The translations under genes and the position numbers were made by a program. A model generated the notes under the pieces. That model had not been told where the DNA came from. It was given only the letters and a program-made list of their open reading frames with translations, and searched no databases. Positions 1 to 19,247 of a DNA stretch of 34,227 nt are shown here, in pieces (position 1 is the stretch's first letter; every line of letters starts with the position of its first letter). This DNA comes from Candidatus Zixiibacteriota bacterium (lineage in GTDB: Bacteria; Zixibacteria; MSB-5A5; GN15; FEB-12): positions 1 to 34,227 of the forward strand of contig JAJRXM010000034.1 in assembly GCA_024276275.1 (NCBI GenBank). Direction: 5' to 3'.

Positions 1-1
1 A

Positions 2-49
2 AGGGCAACCGAAATTGAAACGGTTATCGAAAAAAGTCTGGATAAATAA
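2..49 (+). CDS. Possible 3' end of an unidentified CDS
   Basis: Reading from base 2 gives a short open stretch ending RATEIETVIEKSLDK and a TAA at 47-49. It looks like a charged, helical C-terminus, but only 15 codons are inside the window and the family cannot be recognised. It would converge with the minus-strand small gene at 99-329. Confidence 0.3.
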   Translation, partial: RATEIETVIEKSLDK

Positions 50-81
50 ACCGAGAGCTGCGTAAAAACAGAAAAAAGATG

Positions 82-99
82 AAATTTTATAGAAAATTT
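82..99 (-). terminator. Weak AT-only hairpin after the small secreted gene
   Basis: AAATTTT (82-88) and AAAATTT (93-99) can pair around ATAG. Read on the minus strand this sits at the stop codon of the 99-329 gene and is followed by a T-rich stretch. The stem has no G-C pairs, so terminator function is only a possibility. Confidence 0.25.
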
Positions 100-329
100 T
101 AAGAAAAAATAAGTAAGAAATGTGTCCCATTTTTATTGACAAGTTCCGCCCTTTTAGGAGTAATACCGAATGAAAAATTTATTATTTCTCCAACCACAAG
201 TTGGTCCTCTGTTTCAAGGCTGTACTCTATCGGCCATGACGGCATTGTTTTAGCAAATGTTGTTGAACATACTAAACTAATGATTATGTATAATATGCTG
301 ACATTTTTTATTGTCGAATCAAATTTCAT
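99..329 (-). CDS. Small secreted protein, 76 aa (possibly a truncated larger protein)
   Basis: The product starts with a convincing Sec signal: basic residues, a hydrophobic core around residues 10-22 and a cleavage-like site near FAKT (26). The mature part is only about 50 residues, includes WPIEYSLETEDQLVVGEI and matches no family I recognise. The ATG at 329 has an SD-like GGAAGG 7 nt upstream, so translation is plausible. The mature start resembles the beginning of a beta-rich domain and stops abruptly, so this may be the N-terminal remnant of a larger exported protein. It is the first gene downstream of the sigma-54 promoter at 603-618 and is therefore the candidate target of the activator at 864-3014. 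An intact small secreted peptide is the alternative reading. Confidence 0.5.
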   Translation of the reverse strand: MKFDSTIKNVSILYIIISLVCSTTFAKTMPSWPIEYSLETEDQLVVGEIINFSFGITPKRAELVNKNGTHFLLIFS

Positions 330-602
330 TATTTCACCTTCCTACTTTTTTCAATTTACACTCTTAACTCTTTTACAATCAACAATAAACTTTCTTCCAT
401 ATTTTATTACATTATTATTGCATTTCTTTTCTCCTTACATTTTGTAGTAGTCCGGCTGTAAGGTGACTTGTCACGTTGTGAATTATCACATTCCACCCCA
501 TCCCCGCCGAACAGCTACAAGGCTCACACACGCTACCAAAACTCTCGAAAGATTCGGTTATTTATGTCTACTGTAAATAAATGTCCTACCCAATAATACT
601 TT
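330..602 (-). other. Predicted long 5' leader below the sigma-54 promoter
   Basis: No gene is supported here. Transcription from the sigma-54 promoter would start near 592 and cross about 260 nt before the ATG at 329. The leader has a small hairpin, GTGA-CTTG-TCAC (463-474). On the minus strand it also has AAGGAG (431-436) 7 nt before an ATG (421-423) that is followed by one codon and then two TAA stops (412-417), a minimal two-codon reading frame. Whether it is translated is unknown. Confidence 0.35.
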
Positions 603-618
603 TGCAATTGCTGTGCCA
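603..618 (-). promoter_or_regulatory. Sigma-54 (RpoN) promoter, -24/-12 type
   Basis: On the minus strand the sequence is TGGCACAGCAATTGCA. It matches the sigma-54 core consensus TGGCAC-N5-TTGC with the required spacing between the GG and GC dinucleotides. Transcription would start near 592 and run toward the gene at 99-329. The adjacent gene at 864-3014 encodes a sigma-54 activator carrying the GAFTGA motif, and clustered repeats lie 100-230 bp upstream, where activator sites normally sit. Confidence 0.75.
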
Positions 619-630
619 AAATTGAACAGT

Positions 631-699
631 TGTGCGATAAATCGTATAACGTGTTGAATGTGAACAGAATGCGAAGTGATGCGAAAATCTGTGCGATAA
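631..699. repeat. TGTGCGATAA pair and ATGCGAA tandem upstream of the sigma-54 promoter
   Basis: TGTGCGATAA occurs exactly at 631-640 and again at 690-699. Between them ATGCGAA occurs at 669-675 and 679-685, ten bases apart, which is about one helical turn. The first copy ends 12 bp from the -24 element. These look like protein-binding sites. A related motif precedes the activator gene at 3091-3110. Confidence 0.5.
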
Positions 700-725
700 G
701 TGGAAACAGGTAAATTAACTGGTTT

Positions 726-822
726 GGTACGCACAAAGGTACGCAGTAAAAATATATTTATAAAATTATGTTGTGAGATAACAACTTACAGCTGCGTACC
801 GGTACGCAGTAGATGGTACGCA
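726..822. promoter_or_regulatory. GGTACGCA repeat cluster, predicted upstream activating sites
   Basis: GGTACGCA occurs at 726-733, 738-745, 801-808 and 815-822, and inverted (TGCGTACC) at 793-800. The inverted and direct copies at 792-809 form an 18-bp perfect palindrome, CTGCGTACCGGTACGCAG. The cluster lies between the end of the sigma-54 activator gene and the sigma-54 promoter, about 135-230 bp above the predicted start site. Dyad sites at this distance are typical for Fis-HTH activators. Binding by the neighbouring activator is inferred. Confidence 0.6.
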
Positions 823-863
823 CGAAAATTGATAGAATTAATTTGGATATTAGTTTGTAATAA

Positions 864-3014
864 TTAGAGCTTTGATAGTTCTATTAGATTGTATTTTAAG
901 ATACGCTTACGAATTGCACCTTCAGAAACCCCTAAAATACGAGCTGTTTCACGACGATTCCAATTAGTTTCTTTAAGTAAACTTAATAGTTGTTTACTTT
1001 CAGACAGAGGTTGTTGTTTATCGACCAACTCAATCATTTTTTCAATAGATTTATCAGCAAAAAGATATAATCGTTTCAATTCGTTCCGCAGTTCCCGAAT
1101 ATTGCCATCCCAATTATGTTCTGATAAGATAGTTGCTAATTGCTCAACAATCAATACATCGCCGTTTACTTTAAATCCAAAACTTTGTAGGAAGTATTCA
1201 ACTAAGGCAGGGATATCACTCTTGCGATCTCTTAGAGGAGGGAGCGAAATTTCAATCTCTTTTAATCTGAAATATAAATCAGGTCGGAACAGATTATCTT
1301 TTATCATCTGTTCCAAATTACGGTTAGTCGCCGCAATCAGACGGAAATTAACTTTTCTTGTTTTATTCTCACCTAATCTCCGATATGATTTTTGGTCTAA
1401 GACCCGAAGAAGTTTTGCCTGAGACTCTAAATTTATATCACCGATTTCGTCTAAGAAAAATGTCCCGCCCTCGGCCATTTCAAAAAGTCCGGGCTTGTCA
1501 TCTTTGGCACCAGTGAAAGCTCCCTTTTTATATCCAAATAGTTCGGACTCAAACATTTCATTTGGAAAAGCAGAGGAGTTTACTGCGACAAAGTTATCAT
1601 TTCGTTCGCTATGATAATGAATATAGCGAGCCATAATCTCTTTGCCTGTTCCGGTTTCACCTGTTAAAAGTATAGACATTTCAGACTTGGCAATATGTTT
1701 CGTATGGTCAAGAATTTTAACCATCTTAGAATCGACTGTAATAACATCGGGACAGATGAATTTTGTATTTGTTACTGTTGATTTTTTTGTGCCGATAATA
1801 TTTTTGAGCCTTTGTAATTCCCTTTGAACTTTATCAACATAATGGGTGATGTTTTCTGACTCAAAATACTCTAATGCCAAATGAAGCATCGCATTTTTTT
1901 CATTCGCATTAAAAGTATCTGTCTGCGAGGCGATAAACCGTGTAACAGCAAGTTCATAGTTTGATTTTATATTGTTAAAAATCGTAAAGGCTTTTTCAAA
2001 GTTATCTTTTGCTTTGTCGTTGTTACCGTTGTGCTGTTCAAGCTGTGCGAATATACGATAACAAGCGGCGATTTCTATTCGTTCGTTGATTTTTTCGGCT
2101 ACTTGTAATGCTTTGGTTGTGTGTGACTTGGCGTTGTCGTAGTCACCGGAGAGAAGATATGCATCACCGAGAAGTCTTTTTACTGTTGTTTCCATATCTA
2201 AAACAGAAGCAGATTTGCTATTTACTGTTAAACCTTTCTTAAGAAATTTAATTCCTTTTTCTATATCATTATCTAATAACAAGATATTACCATAGAACTG
2301 ATAATATATCATCTTATGGTAATTACTTAAATTCTCTAATAATTCTATTTCAGCTATTTTTTTGTATGAATCTTCAATTTTCCCTTTCAATGCTAATGCC
2401 AAAGCGTAACCTAAATAATAAACATATTTAGTTTGATCGTCCATCTTAAGAACTACAATTGCATTTTTTTTATATAATGAAATAGATTTATCTATAAAGC
2501 CTGCCCTAAAATAAAATAAAGCAAGGTTGTTTTCTCCCCTTATTATACTATCCTTATTTTCAAGGATCCTACAATATTCTAAATTAATAGTTGCATAACT
2601 AATTGCTTTTTCAAAGCAGTCAAAACGGAGAGCAATATATGCCAGCCTGTTTGAAACATTTCTTACAATTCTATAATGTTTATATTTAATTGAACTATTG
2701 TATGCTAAGCTTAAATACTTTTTTGCTTCTTCTATTTTTCCTAGTTGTTGATATTGCCATCCTCTAAGATATAACGATTCAGCATAGTTCACAGAAGTTT
2801 TTTGATTGCTATAAAATTCCAATGCATTTAATGGAAAAGAGTTTTCATATTTCCCAAGAATCAAAGATGTAAAACCTATTAAAATACAATATTCACCCCA
2901 AAAAGTTGAACCTTTATCTATTTTTGATTCATCAATAGAATTTAAAACATCTAATGTTTCTAGGTATTTACGTTCTTCGCAAAGTTTTTGAGCTTTTTGA
3001 AATTGACTGTTCAA
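864..3014 (-). CDS. Sigma-54-dependent activator with N-terminal TPR sensor, 716 aa
   Basis: Residues 1 to about 410 are helical tetratricopeptide-like repeats in place of a receiver domain. The AAA+ sigma-54 interaction domain follows, with Walker A GETGTGKE (452-459), GAFTGA (498-503), Walker B around FFLDE (519-523) and an arginine-finger region FRPDLYFRL (576-584). A Fis-type helix-turn-helix covers about 687-705 (RRETARILGVSEGAIRKRI). The intact GAFTGA loop indicates genuine sigma-54 activation rather than a degenerate relative. The TPR region probably senses a protein or peptide partner, but the signal is unknown. The start is TTG at 3014: an in-frame TAG lies just upstream and the SD is weak. 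A sigma-70-like promoter is at 3052-3080. The likely targets are the repeats at 726-822 and the promoter at 603-618, immediately downstream of the gene. Confidence 0.92.
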   Translation of the reverse strand: MNSQFQKAQKLCEERKYLETLDVLNSIDESKIDKGSTFWGEYCILIGFTSLILGKYENSFPLNALEFYSNQKTSVNYAESLYLRGWQYQQLGKIEEAKKYLSLAYNSSIKYKHYRIVRNVSNRLAYIALRFDCFEKAISYATINLEYCRILENKDSIIRGENNLALFYFRAGFIDKSISLYKKNAIVVLKMDDQTKYVYYLGYALALALKGKIEDSYKKIAEIELLENLSNYHKMIYYQFYGNILLLDNDIEKGIKFLKKGLTVNSKSASVLDMETTVKRLLGDAYLLSGDYDNAKSHTTKALQVAEKINERIEIAACYRIFAQLEQHNGNNDKAKDNFEKAFTIFNNIKSNYELAVTRFIASQTDTFNANEKNAMLHLALEYFESENITHYVDKVQRELQRLKNIIGTKKSTVTNTKFICPDVITVDSKMVKILDHTKHIAKSEMSILLTGETGTGKEIMARYIHYHSERNDNFVAVNSSAFPNEMFESELFGYKKGAFTGAKDDKPGLFEMAEGGTFFLDEIGDINLESQAKLLRVLDQKSYRRLGENKTRKVNFRLIAATNRNLEQMIKDNLFRPDLYFRLKEIEISLPPLRDRKSDIPALVEYFLQSFGFKVNGDVLIVEQLATILSEHNWDGNIRELRNELKRLYLFADKSIEKMIELVDKQQPLSESKQLLSLLKETNWNRRETARILGVSEGAIRKRILKYNLIELSKL

Positions 3015-3051
3015 AATTGTCTACTCTATCATAGGTTTATAGGCTTACAAT

Positions 3052-3080
3052 AAAATAGTTGATTGTCACGATTCTGTCAA
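3052..3080 (-). promoter_or_regulatory. Sigma-70-like promoter of the sigma-54 activator gene
   Basis: On the minus strand TTGACA (3075-3080) is followed by a 17-bp spacer and TATTTT (3052-3057), about 40 bp above the TTG start at 3014. The -35 box is perfect and the -10 box is a partial match. Confidence 0.5.
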
Positions 3081-3090
3081 GGCAATAAGT

Positions 3091-3110
3091 CGCATAAAAT
3101 GCGATGCGAG
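3091..3110. promoter_or_regulatory. CGCAT-AAA-ATGCG dyad plus ATGCGAG, possible operator
   Basis: CGCAT (3091-3095) and ATGCG (3099-3103) form a dyad, followed directly by ATGCGAG (3104-3110). It lies 10 bp above the -35 box of the activator gene and shares ATGCGA with the repeats near the sigma-54 promoter (669-685). Autoregulation is possible but unproven. Confidence 0.35.
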
Positions 3111-7174: not shown

Positions 7175-8515
7175 TTATGCTATTATACGTATGATTTTTG
7201 TCTTCTGAGGTCGTAATTTAATCGGACGGATTTTGACATAGCCGTTTTGTTCCCAAGCTTTATCTCTGTCGGTAGTTTGAGAATCGCCCCCCGATGCTCC
7301 GATTTGAAATGACTCATCTAAACAGATAACAAGATGATACGCTTTACTGTTTTCATTCAAATGAAACAATAAAGCTCCTTTTTCGGGTCTGTCCAGCTCT
7401 TGTTTGTCGGAAAAATGTTTTAACAATGAATCAGCGGTGAAATCATCATTTTCAGAACATAACCCGACCGTTTTTAAACATTCTAATACATATCCAGAGC
7501 AGTCAAAACCTGACGGGTCATCACCTCCCCATTTGTATGGTGTCCCGAGATACACAAGGGCAGTTTTGAGAAACCATTTAAGTCTATTTGATTCTTCCAT
7601 AGTAAAGAGATTATTTCTGACAAATACACTTAAGTTGTAAAGAAAATGTAAACCGTTATTTTTACTCGAAAGAAATACACCCGACAGCACTAACATACCG
7701 CCGACAGCAGTAAAAATTCCGCACTGTTCGTTCAAATACGGCACAGCTAGAGCAGTAGTAGCCAACGGCTCCAGATAGAGGAAAAAACCTGCTTTAGCAG
7801 CACCGAATTTCGCGACACCCTCCTGCCAAAACCAATGTGAAACAGCCAAGCAAAGAATCCCGAGTATACCGAGAGCTATCATCGGTTCGGTCGGAAGATT
7901 AACAAAAACTGTCCAGTCAGAATCAAACAGCATGTAACCGACTGTTATAATTGTTGCGGGTATGAACATCGCAAATGTTACCGCTATCGGATTATATCTT
8001 CTGGAAATGTCTCTGGTAATAACAGTATAAATTGCCCAGGTATGGGCTGACAATAAGACCAGCCAGTCACCGACCGATGATAGCCAATCGACTTTGGACA
8101 GCTCTCCTTTTGAGACTAACAGAATAATCCCTGTTGTTGCGATAACAATTCCTAAAATTGCATTCCTCCCTATTTTTTCTTTTAGGAAAAAATAAGACAA
8201 AAGAGCCAACACAAGAGGTGTAACAGAAATAATCCATCCGGTATTTGTTGCCGAAGTATATTTCAGGCCGGTCATTTGAATAAAAAAATGTACGGTAATT
8301 ATCAACCCACCCAGTAAAATTTTGGAGTAATCTTTTTTTTCAAATTGTAGTTGAATTTTTTTCTTTCTGAGAACAAGATACAAAAAAGGAAGTCCGATTA
8401 TGAACCGCAGACCCATTAATTCAAGAGGAGTAACGTAATCTAAAAGTATCTTCGTAAAGACAAAAGAGAAACCCCAAAAAACAACTGCCAAGAGCAGCAT
8501 AATTCTTTCACGCAT
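7175..8515 (-). CDS. EamA/DMT-family transporter fused to an NlpC/P60 peptidase domain, 446 aa
   Basis: Residues 1 to about 285 form a complete ten-helix drug/metabolite (EamA) transporter. After a short linker, residues about 308-446 form an NlpC/P60 cysteine-peptidase domain: YLGTPYKWGG leads to the catalytic Cys339 in GFDCSGYV, and His394 in AYHLVIC is the likely second catalytic residue. NlpC/P60 enzymes cleave peptidoglycan peptide stems, usually outside the cytoplasmic membrane. The whole stretch is one uninterrupted frame. Met306, at the junction (MEESNRLKWF), could be the old start of a separate peptidase gene. ATG at 8515 is preferred over TTG at 8518, since it overlaps the TGA of the upstream transporter gene as TGATG, indicating translational coupling. 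Either a genuine fusion or a lost stop codon would explain it. A role in importing or salvaging cell-wall peptides is speculative. Confidence 0.85.
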   Translation of the reverse strand: MRERIMLLLAVVFWGFSFVFTKILLDYVTPLELMGLRFIIGLPFLYLVLRKKKIQLQFEKKDYSKILLGGLIITVHFFIQMTGLKYTSATNTGWIISVTPLVLALLSYFFLKEKIGRNAILGIVIATTGIILLVSKGELSKVDWLSSVGDWLVLLSAHTWAIYTVITRDISRRYNPIAVTFAMFIPATIITVGYMLFDSDWTVFVNLPTEPMIALGILGILCLAVSHWFWQEGVAKFGAAKAGFFLYLEPLATTALAVPYLNEQCGIFTAVGGMLVLSGVFLSSKNNGLHFLYNLSVFVRNNLFTMEESNRLKWFLKTALVYLGTPYKWGGDDPSGFDCSGYVLECLKTVGLCSENDDFTADSLLKHFSDKQELDRPEKGALLFHLNENSKAYHLVICLDESFQIGASGGDSQTTDRDKAWEQNGYVKIRPIKLRPQKTKIIRIIA

Positions 8516-9405
8516 CAAGCGTCATGCTCCGTCACATCTGTTTTACCATATTTTTCGGCAACCATAACACCTATTGTTATCAATACAGCACCTCCTATGA
8601 GCCAAATTGTAATTTTCTCGTCTAAAATAATCCACGCTCCGACCATTGTAATAAGTGGTTCAAAATATAAATATATCCCTACCTCGGCAGCTTTTAAACG
8701 TGCTAACCCTTCCGACCAAAGCCAAAAGGCAATTGCAAGAGAAAAGATACCGAGAAATAGTAAACTAATAATCGTGTCCGTTTGTAAAGTTATAAACTTT
8801 GAGATATTTGAGGTCATAAAAGTATACGGGACAAAAATCAATCCGGCAAATGTTGCCATCCAAAATGTCGTAACAAGCGGGTCATAGATTCCTCTTATCT
8901 TACGAACCCAAATTGTATAGATAGCCCAGGTTATACAGGAACCGAGAACAATAAAGTCTCCCCTTGAATTTTCCCATCGTAAATTCTCTAACGACCCATT
9001 TGCTGTCAACACAATCACACCTATTGCTGCGATGAATAACCCTATTGATTGCCAAAGAGAAAACTTCTCTTTTAAAACCATCCATCCTAAAATTGCTATA
9101 AAAATCGGAGCAGTTGTGAGTATCCAAGCTGTATTAGAGGCGGTAGTCTCCTGCATACCGACTGCCATGACCCAAAAATGTATAAATATCAATAATGACC
9201 CGACAAAAATAACTTTAAAGTTCTTTATCGGTAATATCTTTATATTTTTATATAATAGGATCAACCAAAGCGAAGGTGCTGCAAGAAGAAACCTTAGTGA
9301 AATCATCTCAACAGGTTCTAACTCTGTTAAGACAATTTTAATGGCAATATATGATAACCCCCAAAAGATTACAGGTATAAGCAAATATAGAGATGTTCTT
9401 TTCAT
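8515..9405 (-). CDS. EamA/DMT-family transporter, 296 aa
   Basis: Ten predicted hydrophobic helices in two five-helix halves, with EamA signatures such as PVIFWGLSYIAIKI at the start, RFLLAAPSLWLI and a C-terminal YLYFEPLITMVGAWIILDE. The family exports amino acids or metabolites across the inner membrane, but the substrate cannot be read from sequence. It is a paralogue of the transporter half of the next gene, whose ATG overlaps this gene's stop. The pair thus looks like one operon, perhaps after tandem duplication. The ATG at 9405 has no obvious SD. The gene is divergent from threonine synthase, so export of a related amino acid is possible but only suggested by position. Confidence 0.88.
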   Translation of the reverse strand: MKRTSLYLLIPVIFWGLSYIAIKIVLTELEPVEMISLRFLLAAPSLWLILLYKNIKILPIKNFKVIFVGSLLIFIHFWVMAVGMQETTASNTAWILTTAPIFIAILGWMVLKEKFSLWQSIGLFIAAIGVIVLTANGSLENLRWENSRGDFIVLGSCITWAIYTIWVRKIRGIYDPLVTTFWMATFAGLIFVPYTFMTSNISKFITLQTDTIISLLFLGIFSLAIAFWLWSEGLARLKAAEVGIYLYFEPLITMVGAWIILDEKITIWLIGGAVLITIGVMVAEKYGKTDVTEHDA

Positions 9406-16527: not shown

Positions 16528-17751
16528 ATGAGTTATATCGTATTTGCCCGAAAATACCGTCCGATGTCGTTCAGCGACGTTGTGGCACAAGAACATGTCA
16601 CTAAGACCCTCCAAAACGGTATTAAAAATGACCGTATCGGACAGGGCTATCTGTTTTGCGGTCCGCGCGGTACCGGTAAAACAACTACCGCCCGTATATT
16701 GGCTAAGGCAGTCAATTGTACCGAAGGACCGACTCCGACTCCTTGTATGAAATGTCCTGCCTGCGAGGAAATTACCAAAGGGGTCTCGCTTGATGTCTTA
16801 GAAATCGATGCTGCCTCTAATACCGGTGTTGATGATATCCGTACTATTCGAGAAAATGTACGTTATATGCCAACTTCGGGACATAAACGAATTTATATTA
16901 TCGATGAAGTCCACCGGCTCTCTGCCTCGGCATTTGATGCTCTGTTGAAAACTTTAGAAGAACCTCCTCCTCATGTCATGTTCATTTTTGCGACTACCGA
17001 ACCTCTCAAAGTTCCGGAAACTATTTTATCGCGTACCCAGCGGTTTGATTTTAAGCTGGTTTCTATTGATGATTTAGCAAAACATCTCAAAGGTATTGCC
17101 GACAAAGAAAAATTAGATATTTCAGAGTCTGCTCTCAGGTTAGTTGCCAGAAAAGCAAACGGTTCGGTGCGTGATTCATTATCTCTTTTAGACCAGATTG
17201 CAGCTTTTGCCGACGGTGCCATCACCGAAGAAAATGTTATTGAAGCACTCGGTTTAGTTGATAAACAATTACTGTTTGATTTCACTAATGCGATAGCATC
17301 AAAAGATAAATTAACAACTCTCAGAATAATAAAAACAATTTTTGAGAACGGTGTCGATTCAAAAGATTTTGTTGCCGAACTGATGGAGCATTTTAGAATA
17401 CTACTGGTTTTGGCAACCGATAAATCAGCAGCAGAACTTCTGAATATAAGCAACGATGATTTAAAAGACTATCTGAAGCAAATTGATTTTTATTCGGTTG
17501 GTGACATTATCCGTCTGATGAAAATCGGTTCGGACATGAACAATGACATTAAATTTTCCGGTCTTGATGAACGCTTGATACTTGAGATGAATTCTGTTAA
17601 AATGGCCGAGATTGAATCAACCGTAAAGTTTGAAGAAGTTCTGGCTTATTTAAAAAATAACCCGATACAAAACAATTCTCCAATTACCCGAACAGATACA
17701 GGACTCAGTCAGCTAGAAAAAAAAAGAGTTTTAACAGCCAACCAAAAGTAA
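16528..17751 (+). CDS. dnaX: DNA polymerase III gamma subunit (unshifted dnaX product), 407 aa
   Basis: The clamp-loader ATPase of the replicative polymerase. Walker A GPRGTGKT is at 45-52, the zinc module cysteines are Cys64, Cys73, Cys76 and Cys79, Walker B IIDEVH is at 124-129, and FIFATTEP holds sensor 1. The usual SRC arginine-finger motif reads SRT (168-170): Arg is kept and Cys is replaced by Thr. In frame zero the protein ends eight codons after an A9 run, at TAA 17749-17751. That is a complete gamma without the C-terminal polymerase- and helicase-contacting part. No SD is visible before the ATG at 16528. It starts the classical dnaX-ybaB-recR cluster. Confidence 0.93.
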   Translation: MSYIVFARKYRPMSFSDVVAQEHVTKTLQNGIKNDRIGQGYLFCGPRGTGKTTTARILAKAVNCTEGPTPTPCMKCPACEEITKGVSLDVLEIDAASNTGVDDIRTIRENVRYMPTSGHKRIYIIDEVHRLSASAFDALLKTLEEPPPHVMFIFATTEPLKVPETILSRTQRFDFKLVSIDDLAKHLKGIADKEKLDISESALRLVARKANGSVRDSLSLLDQIAAFADGAITEENVIEALGLVDKQLLFDFTNAIASKDKLTTLRIIKTIFENGVDSKDFVAELMEHFRILLVLATDKSAAELLNISNDDLKDYLKQIDFYSVGDIIRLMKIGSDMNNDIKFSGLDERLILEMNSVKMAEIESTVKFEEVLAYLKNNPIQNNSPITRTDTGLSQLEKKRVLTANQK

Positions 17752-18302: not shown

Positions 18303-19247
18303 ATGGCTAAAGGCGGTGGAATGGGCAACATGATGAAACAAGTTCAGCAAATGCAGGCGAAAATGGAAAAAATGCAGGCAGAGCTTGAAGAGATGGAAAT
18401 TGAAGCATCCTCAGGCGGCGGCATGGTAACCGTTGTCGTAAACGGTAAACAGGATGTAATTTCTATCAAACTTGACCCGGAAGTTGTAGACAAAGATGAT
18501 GTCGAAATGCTTCAGGATTTAATCGTTGCTGCAATCAATCAGGCAAAAGAAAAAGCCGGCGAAATTCAAGCTGAAAATATGTCACAAATTACCGGCGGTA
18601 TGAATATACCCGGTATGAATCTTCCTTTCCAAGAAAATGATAAATTGATGTTTAAATCAGCAAATTCAGTTGAAAGACTCGCCAACCGTTTAGCACGTCT
18701 TCCCGGAATCGGGAGAAAATCAGCAAACCGCTTGGCATTTCATATTCTCAAATTATCCAAAGAAGACGCTATTGAGTTAGCCGATACTATTCGGGAAGTA
18801 AAAGAAAAAGTCGGGTTCTGCTCAGAATGTAATAATATCTCCGAAACAGACCCTTGTCAGATTTGTTCCGACCCAAAACGCTCTCGATCTATTATATGCG
18901 TTGTCGAAGAAACTCCCGATGCTGCCGCTATTGATAAGGCGGAAAGTTTTAACGGGATGTTTCATATACTTGGAGGGAAACTTTCTCCTCTTGACGGAAT
19001 CGGACCGGATGATTTAAAAATTAGTGAACTGCTTCAAAGAATTCATAACGGAGATGTCACCGAAATTATTTTAGCAACTAATCCTAATGTCGAGGGTGAA
19101 GCAACTGCTCTTTATCTTGCGGGGTTGTTGAGACCTCTGGGACTGAAAATAAGCAGAATAGCTCGCGGTCTCCCGGTCGGTTCTGATTTGGAATATGCCG
19201 ATTCTGCTACACTTTCCAGAGCATTAGAAGGTCGTCAGGAGTTTTAA
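18303..19247 (+). CDS. recR: YbaB/EbfC-RecR fusion protein, 314 aa
   Basis: Residues 1-109 are a complete YbaB/EbfC nucleoid-associated protein: a Met/Gln-rich helix with KQVQQMQAKMEKMQ, VVVNGKQDVISIKLDPEVV and a tail ending GMNIPGMNLPF. Residues 116-314 are a complete RecR of 199 aa: helix-hairpin-helix LARLPGIGRKSANRLAFHIL, a zinc finger CSEC...CQIC, a Toprim segment around SIICVVEE, and ATNPNVEGEATALYL. Normally these are two adjacent genes. Here only a six-residue linker (QENDKL) joins them, with no stop. Gln110 (CAA, 18630-18632) is one transition away from TAA. RecR could also start internally at ATG 18648, but its SD is weak. RecR loads RecA at gaps with RecO/RecF. AAGGAG precedes the first ATG. 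Confidence 0.92.
   Translation: MAKGGGMGNMMKQVQQMQAKMEKMQAELEEMEIEASSGGGMVTVVVNGKQDVISIKLDPEVVDKDDVEMLQDLIVAAINQAKEKAGEIQAENMSQITGGMNIPGMNLPFQENDKLMFKSANSVERLANRLARLPGIGRKSANRLAFHILKLSKEDAIELADTIREVKEKVGFCSECNNISETDPCQICSDPKRSRSIICVVEETPDAAAIDKAESFNGMFHILGGKLSPLDGIGPDDLKISELLQRIHNGDVTEIILATNPNVEGEATALYLAGLLRPLGLKISRIARGLPVGSDLEYADSATLSRALEGRQEF

Follow-up and report, generated by a model that had tools for sequence, protein, structure and literature searches.

A TPR-type sigma-54 activator, putative private sites and a downstream promoter form a probable repeated module in a Zixiibacteriota genome

The 34,227-nucleotide stretch of DNA analyzed here, hereafter the window (G000:C98:1-34227, from a 3.39-Mb draft genome of 100 contigs), probably carries a self-contained, one-component sigma-54 module of a kind that is repeated elsewhere, a reading that we hold with good confidence. 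The module begins with the gene for a TPR-type sigma-54 activator, here called family A, and continues with a cluster of repeats, a -24/-12 promoter, a structured leader and the remaining part of a secreted-protein gene. An earlier note had read the order of activator, sites, promoter and secreted gene as a self-contained circuit, and that layout recurs in relatives. The layout, its conservation, the covariation of sites with the recognition helix, the leader structure and the single occurrence of the dyad in the genome are established by sequence statistics.

Results

Organization of the module in the window

The features of the module are as follows.
1..148, strand not assigned: repeat end (IS-like); a frame ending ...EKSLDK* closes at about 49; it interrupts both the output gene and the contig
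149..329, minus: secreted-protein gene, remaining 5' part, the presumed output; about 60 codons with a signal peptide
443..519, minus: second leader hairpin, arms TGTAGCTGTTCGGC / GCCGGACTACTACA
535..558, minus: leader hairpin ACCGAATCTTTCGAGAGTTTTGGT, 24 nt, identical in all three genome copies
535..679, minus: promoter/leader block, 145 bp; two ATGCGA words lie in and just beyond it (669-674, 679-684)
603..618, minus: sigma-54 -24/-12 promoter TGGCACAGCAATTGCA; predicted start near 592
726..822, both strands: putative upstream activating sites; five TGCGTACC half-sites and a perfect dyad, covarying with the recognition helix
864..3014, minus: sigma-54 activator of family A, 716 aa, TTG start; TPR, AAA+ (GAFTGA) and Fis-type HTH, from Pfam, relatives and alignment A1

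The promoter sequence TGGCACAGCAATTGCA (618-603) has zero mismatches to TGGCACNNNNNTTGCW, with the -24 GG and -12 GC correctly spaced, which bears out the earlier recognition of a sigma-54 core consensus at 603-618. It is the only perfect -24/-12 match in the window; the 3.39-Mb genome contains six in all, against 0 for a reversed control pattern. RpoN is encoded in the same genome (C31:42958-43434, 3.5e-57).

All five copies of GGTACGCA/TGCGTACC present in the 34-kb window sit at 726-822 (726-733, 738-745, 793-800 on the minus strand, 801-808 and 815-822), where 0.40 would be expected; five were reached in 0 of 100 shuffles. A perfect 18-bp dyad, CTGCGTACCGGTACGCAG, lies at 792-809, and the dyad TGCGTAC-N0-14-GTACGCA occurs once in the 3.39-Mb genome, at 793-808. 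Two upstream repeat clusters had been described. The one at 726-822 stands; the weaker one at 631-699 amounts to two 17-mers, 82% alike, at 624-640 and 683-699, and is better regarded as belonging to the shared 145-bp block.

The 76-aa secreted product named in the earlier note as the output proved to be a truncated remnant. Window positions 1 to about 148 recur at 13 other contig ends with 94-100% identity, and because of this repeat end only the roughly 60 codons at 149-329 are native to the secreted gene; the 76-aa open reading frame (99-329) consists of these codons, with the signal peptide, followed by repeat sequence. The real product of C98 is presumably longer and cannot be seen in the present assembly. 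The secreted output proteins of relatives are mostly longer, at about 100-1200 aa. A protein of locus L095 was considered as full-length kin of the 76-aa product and rejected, the match covering just 17 residues (E=0.014).

The activator

Pfam domains and an intact GAFTGA, present as ESELFGYKKGAFTGA, confirm the earlier assignment of a TPR-type sigma-54 activator. Its TPR stretches fall within residues 78-347, Sigma54_activat (PF00158) covers residues 425-589 (7.5e-65) with a match to the AAA lid as well, and the C-terminal, Fis-type HTH_8 lies at residues 672-708 (1.2e-5, above the cut-off). The Walker A residues G452, T454, G455, G457 and K458 are invariant in alignment A1 of family-A activators. 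The Pfam scan revealed no receiver domain. RRNPP sensors have an N-terminal XRE-type HTH or no HTH, and the activator has neither arrangement. A single-sequence AlphaFold model of the TPR region (mean pLDDT 67.9) has a TPR superhelix fold; the model matches peptide-binding TPR proteins such as LGN and, at a lower level, NprR, a match that is generic for TPR. Among named relatives of the activator family, the best is from a Candidatus Zixiibacteriota MAG (L117), and neighboring secreted proteins have dockerin-like tails, which we take to be fitting for this phylum. Two family-A activators, those of L086 and L091, have GAFTNA in place of GAFTGA, and several others have GAYTGA.

Paralogous modules in the same genome

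The layout is repeated at least twice more in this genome, on contigs C22 and C81, with different sites. The order of activator, site cluster and 145-bp block is the same at C98, C22 and C81, and the site words are TGCGTACC, TGCGTAAA and CTCGACT, respectively. The C22 activator is 53% identical to that of the window, a C-terminal activator piece lies at the C81 end, and another piece lies at the C74 end. The C98 and C22 activator genes share 62% DNA identity, and 46% at third positions. The block at 535-679 is about 91% (90-92%) identical to G000:C22:1382-1527 and C81:53107-53251, and these are its only three genomic copies, each at the same place after an activator. Such identity would fit either gene conversion, a recent copy or strong constraint. 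A same-genus relative (G001) keeps the promoter part of the block at the same place, and more distant loci keep the -24/-12 elements without the remainder of the block.

The gene after the block differs among the three loci. At C98 it encodes the truncated secreted protein; the C22 product is also secreted and matches NHL repeats weakly, and the C81 gene specifies a right-handed beta-helix protein with dockerin. Output genes are cut at contig ends at C98 and C22 and whole at C81 only, so that the evidence for working outputs comes mainly from relatives. C22, a contig of 3.7 kb, has inverted copies of one sequence at both ends (L021 1-135 and 3560-3695), which cut the activator and the output gene and reflect an insertion element or an assembly effect. 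The activator C-terminal piece at the C74 end (L026 4500-4649) has 13 bases in common with the C81 end (L024 4028-4060), and the two pieces may be one gene; C74 joins its piece to an efflux-protein-like gene, possibly through a chimeric join.

Conservation in relatives

Full-length family-A homologs at E<=1e-80 were present in 27 of 61 relatives, mostly members of the same taxonomic order, and homologs at E<=1e-100 in 34 of 132 genomes of the phylum. The earlier note had proposed looking for the promoter and the repeats in related genomes, and for the promoter the outcome was strongly positive: within 420 bp after the activator stop, a sigma-54 promoter by a loose pattern was found in the sense direction at 25 of 34 loci and in the antisense direction at 0 of 34, with 0.5 expected in the 34 downstream regions from dinucleotide shuffles. 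A strict pattern gave 11 sense and 0 antisense matches in the same regions (0.07 expected). About a quarter of family-A loci have no recognizable promoter within 420 bp. Six loci that were fetched later had a promoter within 450 bp in five cases. Control EBPs from other bacteria, together with some from this genome, had a promoter at 11 of 72; they came from an alignment-based contig search, which returned mostly ordinary EBPs, and a contig search with a single activator as query gave no matches.

For the repeats, too, the outcome was strongly positive, in that their arrangement is kept; GGTACGCA is not a family-wide sequence, the half-site being private to each activator and following its recognition helix. 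On the refuting condition set in the earlier note, a lack of conservation in relatives, the result therefore favors the circuit.

Outputs elsewhere include lipoproteins, propeller proteins and beta-helix proteins, mostly behind structured leaders. Lipoprotein-like outputs occur at L073, L075, L076, L077, L080, L081, L084 and L085. At L084, L085 and L087 the promoter is followed directly by a short leader and then by a lipoprotein-like gene with its ribosome-binding site, and this position of a secreted gene right behind the promoter supports a secreted protein as the output. Cys/Gly-rich hydrophobic C-terminal tails recur on the output lipoproteins of L073, L075, L077, L081, L084 and L085; NCBIfam and Pfam gave no family placement for these Cys-rich tails, and their halocin-like look is an impression only.

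Covariation of sites and recognition helix

Repeats of the form NNCGNN lie between the activator stop and the promoter at nearly every locus, and their sequence varies with the HTH. Where the residue after WN[RQ], in the HTH motif WN[RQ]xE, is R, the sites start with TGCG; where it is S, T or L, they start with TTCG or CTCG ([TC]TCG). Scored by these words, R loci were above zero in 17 cases and below in 4, and non-R loci above in 2 and below in 15. The separation across all n=40 loci has a Mann-Whitney p=8e-7, uncorrected for relatedness. Among promoter-bearing loci the prediction fits 14 of 16 R loci and 13 of 14 non-R loci (14/2 and 1/13 above/below). Other helix positions follow further bases: SEGxxRK pairs with GTAC, SEGxxR[YNSH] in most cases with GTAA or GTAG, and, by eye, SE[SA][ST]VRR pairs with GTCA and xExTVRR with GAC. 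The helix and site words were defined after inspection of most loci, and were counted on both strands at places that were not hand-picked. The six held-out loci alone gave p=0.17 for the word count, and position 2 of the half-site fits at all six by eye. A requirement for perfect dyads left 13-14 loci (p 0.02-0.10) and was too strict, hence the use of word counts.

The residue after WN[RQ] has undergone about nine changes on the tree, so the covariation is not one old split. A test corrected for relatedness had five well-supported independent pairs, of which on average 3.5 agreed and 0.1 were opposite (p=0.125), five pairs being too few to reach 0.05. Since the private site follows the recognition helix in this way, we regard the repeats as very probably the family-A activator's own sites; the case for them as putative cognate enhancers is strong, if not final.

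Leader RNA and a shared element

Over the 160 nt that follow the predicted start, folding is better than in shuffled sequences, with a mean z of -2.26 against 0.00 for coding controls (p=7e-7). At the place of the C98 hairpin at 443-519, C22 and C81 carry a different hairpin. No T-run terminator is obvious in the window leader, and Rfam searches of the leaders gave sub-threshold chance matches only. One family of loci, L076, L080 and L088, has a leader in common that contains CCTCC and GGTGGTTGAAG together with several long hairpins, of which GGAGCGA...TCGCTCC is the last; this is perhaps another structured RNA.

The word TCGCAT/ATGCGA is enriched between the sites and the promoter, even for private sites of the TGCGTA kind (18 versus 4.0 expected), and also before the sister module described below (20 versus 4.7); control words were not enriched.

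A core sister module and its small RNA

A sister TPR activator, 33% identical and encoded here on C34, is present as a single copy in 50 of 61 relatives. Next come a sigma-54 promoter and an RNA of about 100 nt, closed by a terminator (L212:4162-4286, G000:C34:13886-14010). Over 19 sequences of this RNA, 9 of 12 pairs have compensatory changes and 98.7% of cells pair, a level equaled by 0 of 500 shuffles. The RNA model matches 55 of 98 genomes, with a single match in every one of these except one, and Rfam gave sub-threshold chance matches only. The sister RNA appears to be a new small RNA family, a candidate for sigma-54 control. Apart from the main finding, it is the best-supported new result. 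The notion that family-A leaders are the same RNA was ruled out, as the model matches no family-A leader. Behind the C34 module (L027 4000-6501), genes resembling a microcompartment shell protein and an RnfC-like protein can be read from the sequence.

Discussion

We propose that the family-A activator would bind the TGCGTACC dyads just past its own gene through its HTH, as a Fis-like dimer, and would then oligomerize and remodel the closed sigma-54 complex at 603-618, presumably in an RpoN-dependent manner. Contact with the polymerase at TGGCACAGCAATTGCA would be made across a DNA loop of roughly 110-220 bp, through GAFTGA and with ATP hydrolysis. The resulting transcript, from near 592, would run through a structured leader of about 260 nt into the secreted-protein gene, which is cut here by the repeat end. 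With paralogs that have private sites and altered recognition helices matched to them, the circuits within one cell should be mutually insulated. The TCGCAT elements may add a shared second input by a common regulator, perhaps the core sister activator, which is a guess. The TPR superhelix would receive the signal, a protein or a peptide. It is speculative that the secreted output supplies a peptide as this signal. An extended form of this idea, that the modules are diversifying private channels in which each TPR region senses a peptide or surface product of its own secreted output, forming orthogonal sigma-54 circuits for self-recognition or quorum sensing under the oversight of the core TPR activator and its small RNA, seems to us improbable.

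The rival to be weighed most closely concerns the product of the promoter, which might be mainly a structured RNA, a leader or small RNA, with the secreted gene secondary or served by its own promoter. The strong leader structure, with a 24-nt hairpin that is identical in three copies, would suit such a role. So would the sister module, where the RNA of about 100 nt behind the sigma-54 promoter is terminated and has 9 of 12 pairs compensated, the terminator-like hairpin at L086 that is followed by a seemingly unrelated gene, and the EBPs of D. vulgaris with an adjacent ncRNA target (PMC4641369). However, a lipoprotein-like gene stands directly in line behind the promoter and short leader with its RBS at L084, L085 and L087, family-A leaders are unmatched by the sister RNA model, and the window leader lacks an obvious T-run terminator; we therefore consider an RNA as main product unlikely, though deserving of attention.

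The repeats could instead be sites of another regulator, such as a nucleoid protein or a factor that represses the activator gene, lying near the sigma-54 promoter incidentally. TCGCAT, which is unmatched to the family-A helix and is likewise enriched near the promoters, lends something to this explanation, but changes in the private site track the recognition helix of the activator itself, a dyad length of about 14-18 bp suits a Fis-type dimer, and the arrangement is found again in many genomes, all of which leaves it with little probability. Smaller still is the chance that no promoter lies in the 145-bp block and that it is instead some mobile or repeated element that has spread by chance. 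Its non-coding DNA is about 91% identical where the neighboring coding DNA is 62% identical, and IS-like repeats lie close to it; against this, the genome holds just three copies, always at the same place behind an activator, the same-genus G001 keeps the promoter part in place, and distant loci keep -24/-12 but not the remainder of the block. The self-contained module, with a secreted protein as its output, is the reading that we prefer.

Several features of the module have precedents. Sigma-54 activators often adjoin their targets, as surveyed in D. vulgaris (PMC4641369), sigma-54 regulation is biased toward the cell exterior and lipoproteins (PMC3162934), and sigma-54 promoters precede secreted-protein genes in PEP-CTERM systems (PMC1569441). 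One-component EBPs of the NtrC/PspF type are alike in having a Sigma54_activat AAA+ domain, GAFTGA, a Fis-type HTH, dyad upstream sites, a -24/-12 promoter and a neighboring target. They have a receiver, GAF or PAS domain, whereas family A has a TPR region of about 350 aa instead; in family A, the activator gene precedes its sites and promoter, and one genome has several diverged copies with nearly one promoter block. The PrsR/PrsK/PrsT system resembles the module in having a sigma-54 site and an activator-site motif before secreted genes and in involving a TPR protein (PMC1569441); PrsR, in contrast, is a response regulator of many genes with one shared site, and in family A each activator has a private site and a fused TPR region and lacks a receiver. 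RRNPP sensors (PlcR, NprR, Rgg) are alike in pairing a TPR and HTH regulator with an adjoining secreted-product gene, whereas family A has an AAA+/sigma-54 output and a Fis-type HTH. In Vibrio, LuxO, a response regulator, is a sigma-54 activator that adjoins the sigma-54-driven Qrr small RNAs. It is the core sister module on C34, with its activator next to a small RNA behind a sigma-54 promoter, that LuxO-Qrr resembles; the sister RNA, however, matches no Rfam family, and in family-A modules the leader is followed by a secreted gene.

Our literature search found no paper that joins Zixibacteria with sigma-54 and none on TPR-fused activators of the family-A kind. What appears new in family A is the TPR region as sole input domain, sites downstream of the activator gene, and several private copies with one promoter block. 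With some 30 natural activator/site pairs, a recognition code for the Fis-type HTH of sigma-54 activators becomes readable and testable, and would be useful for orthogonal promoters. The modules also point to lineage-wide control over secreted proteins in an uncultured phylum, and a new conserved small RNA stands at the core of this system.

Elsewhere in the window, a 314-aa open reading frame at 18303-19247, shortly after dnaX (16528-17751), fuses YbaB/EbfC with RecR, and a 447-aa open reading frame at 7175-8518 combines an EamA transporter with an NlpC/P60 domain.
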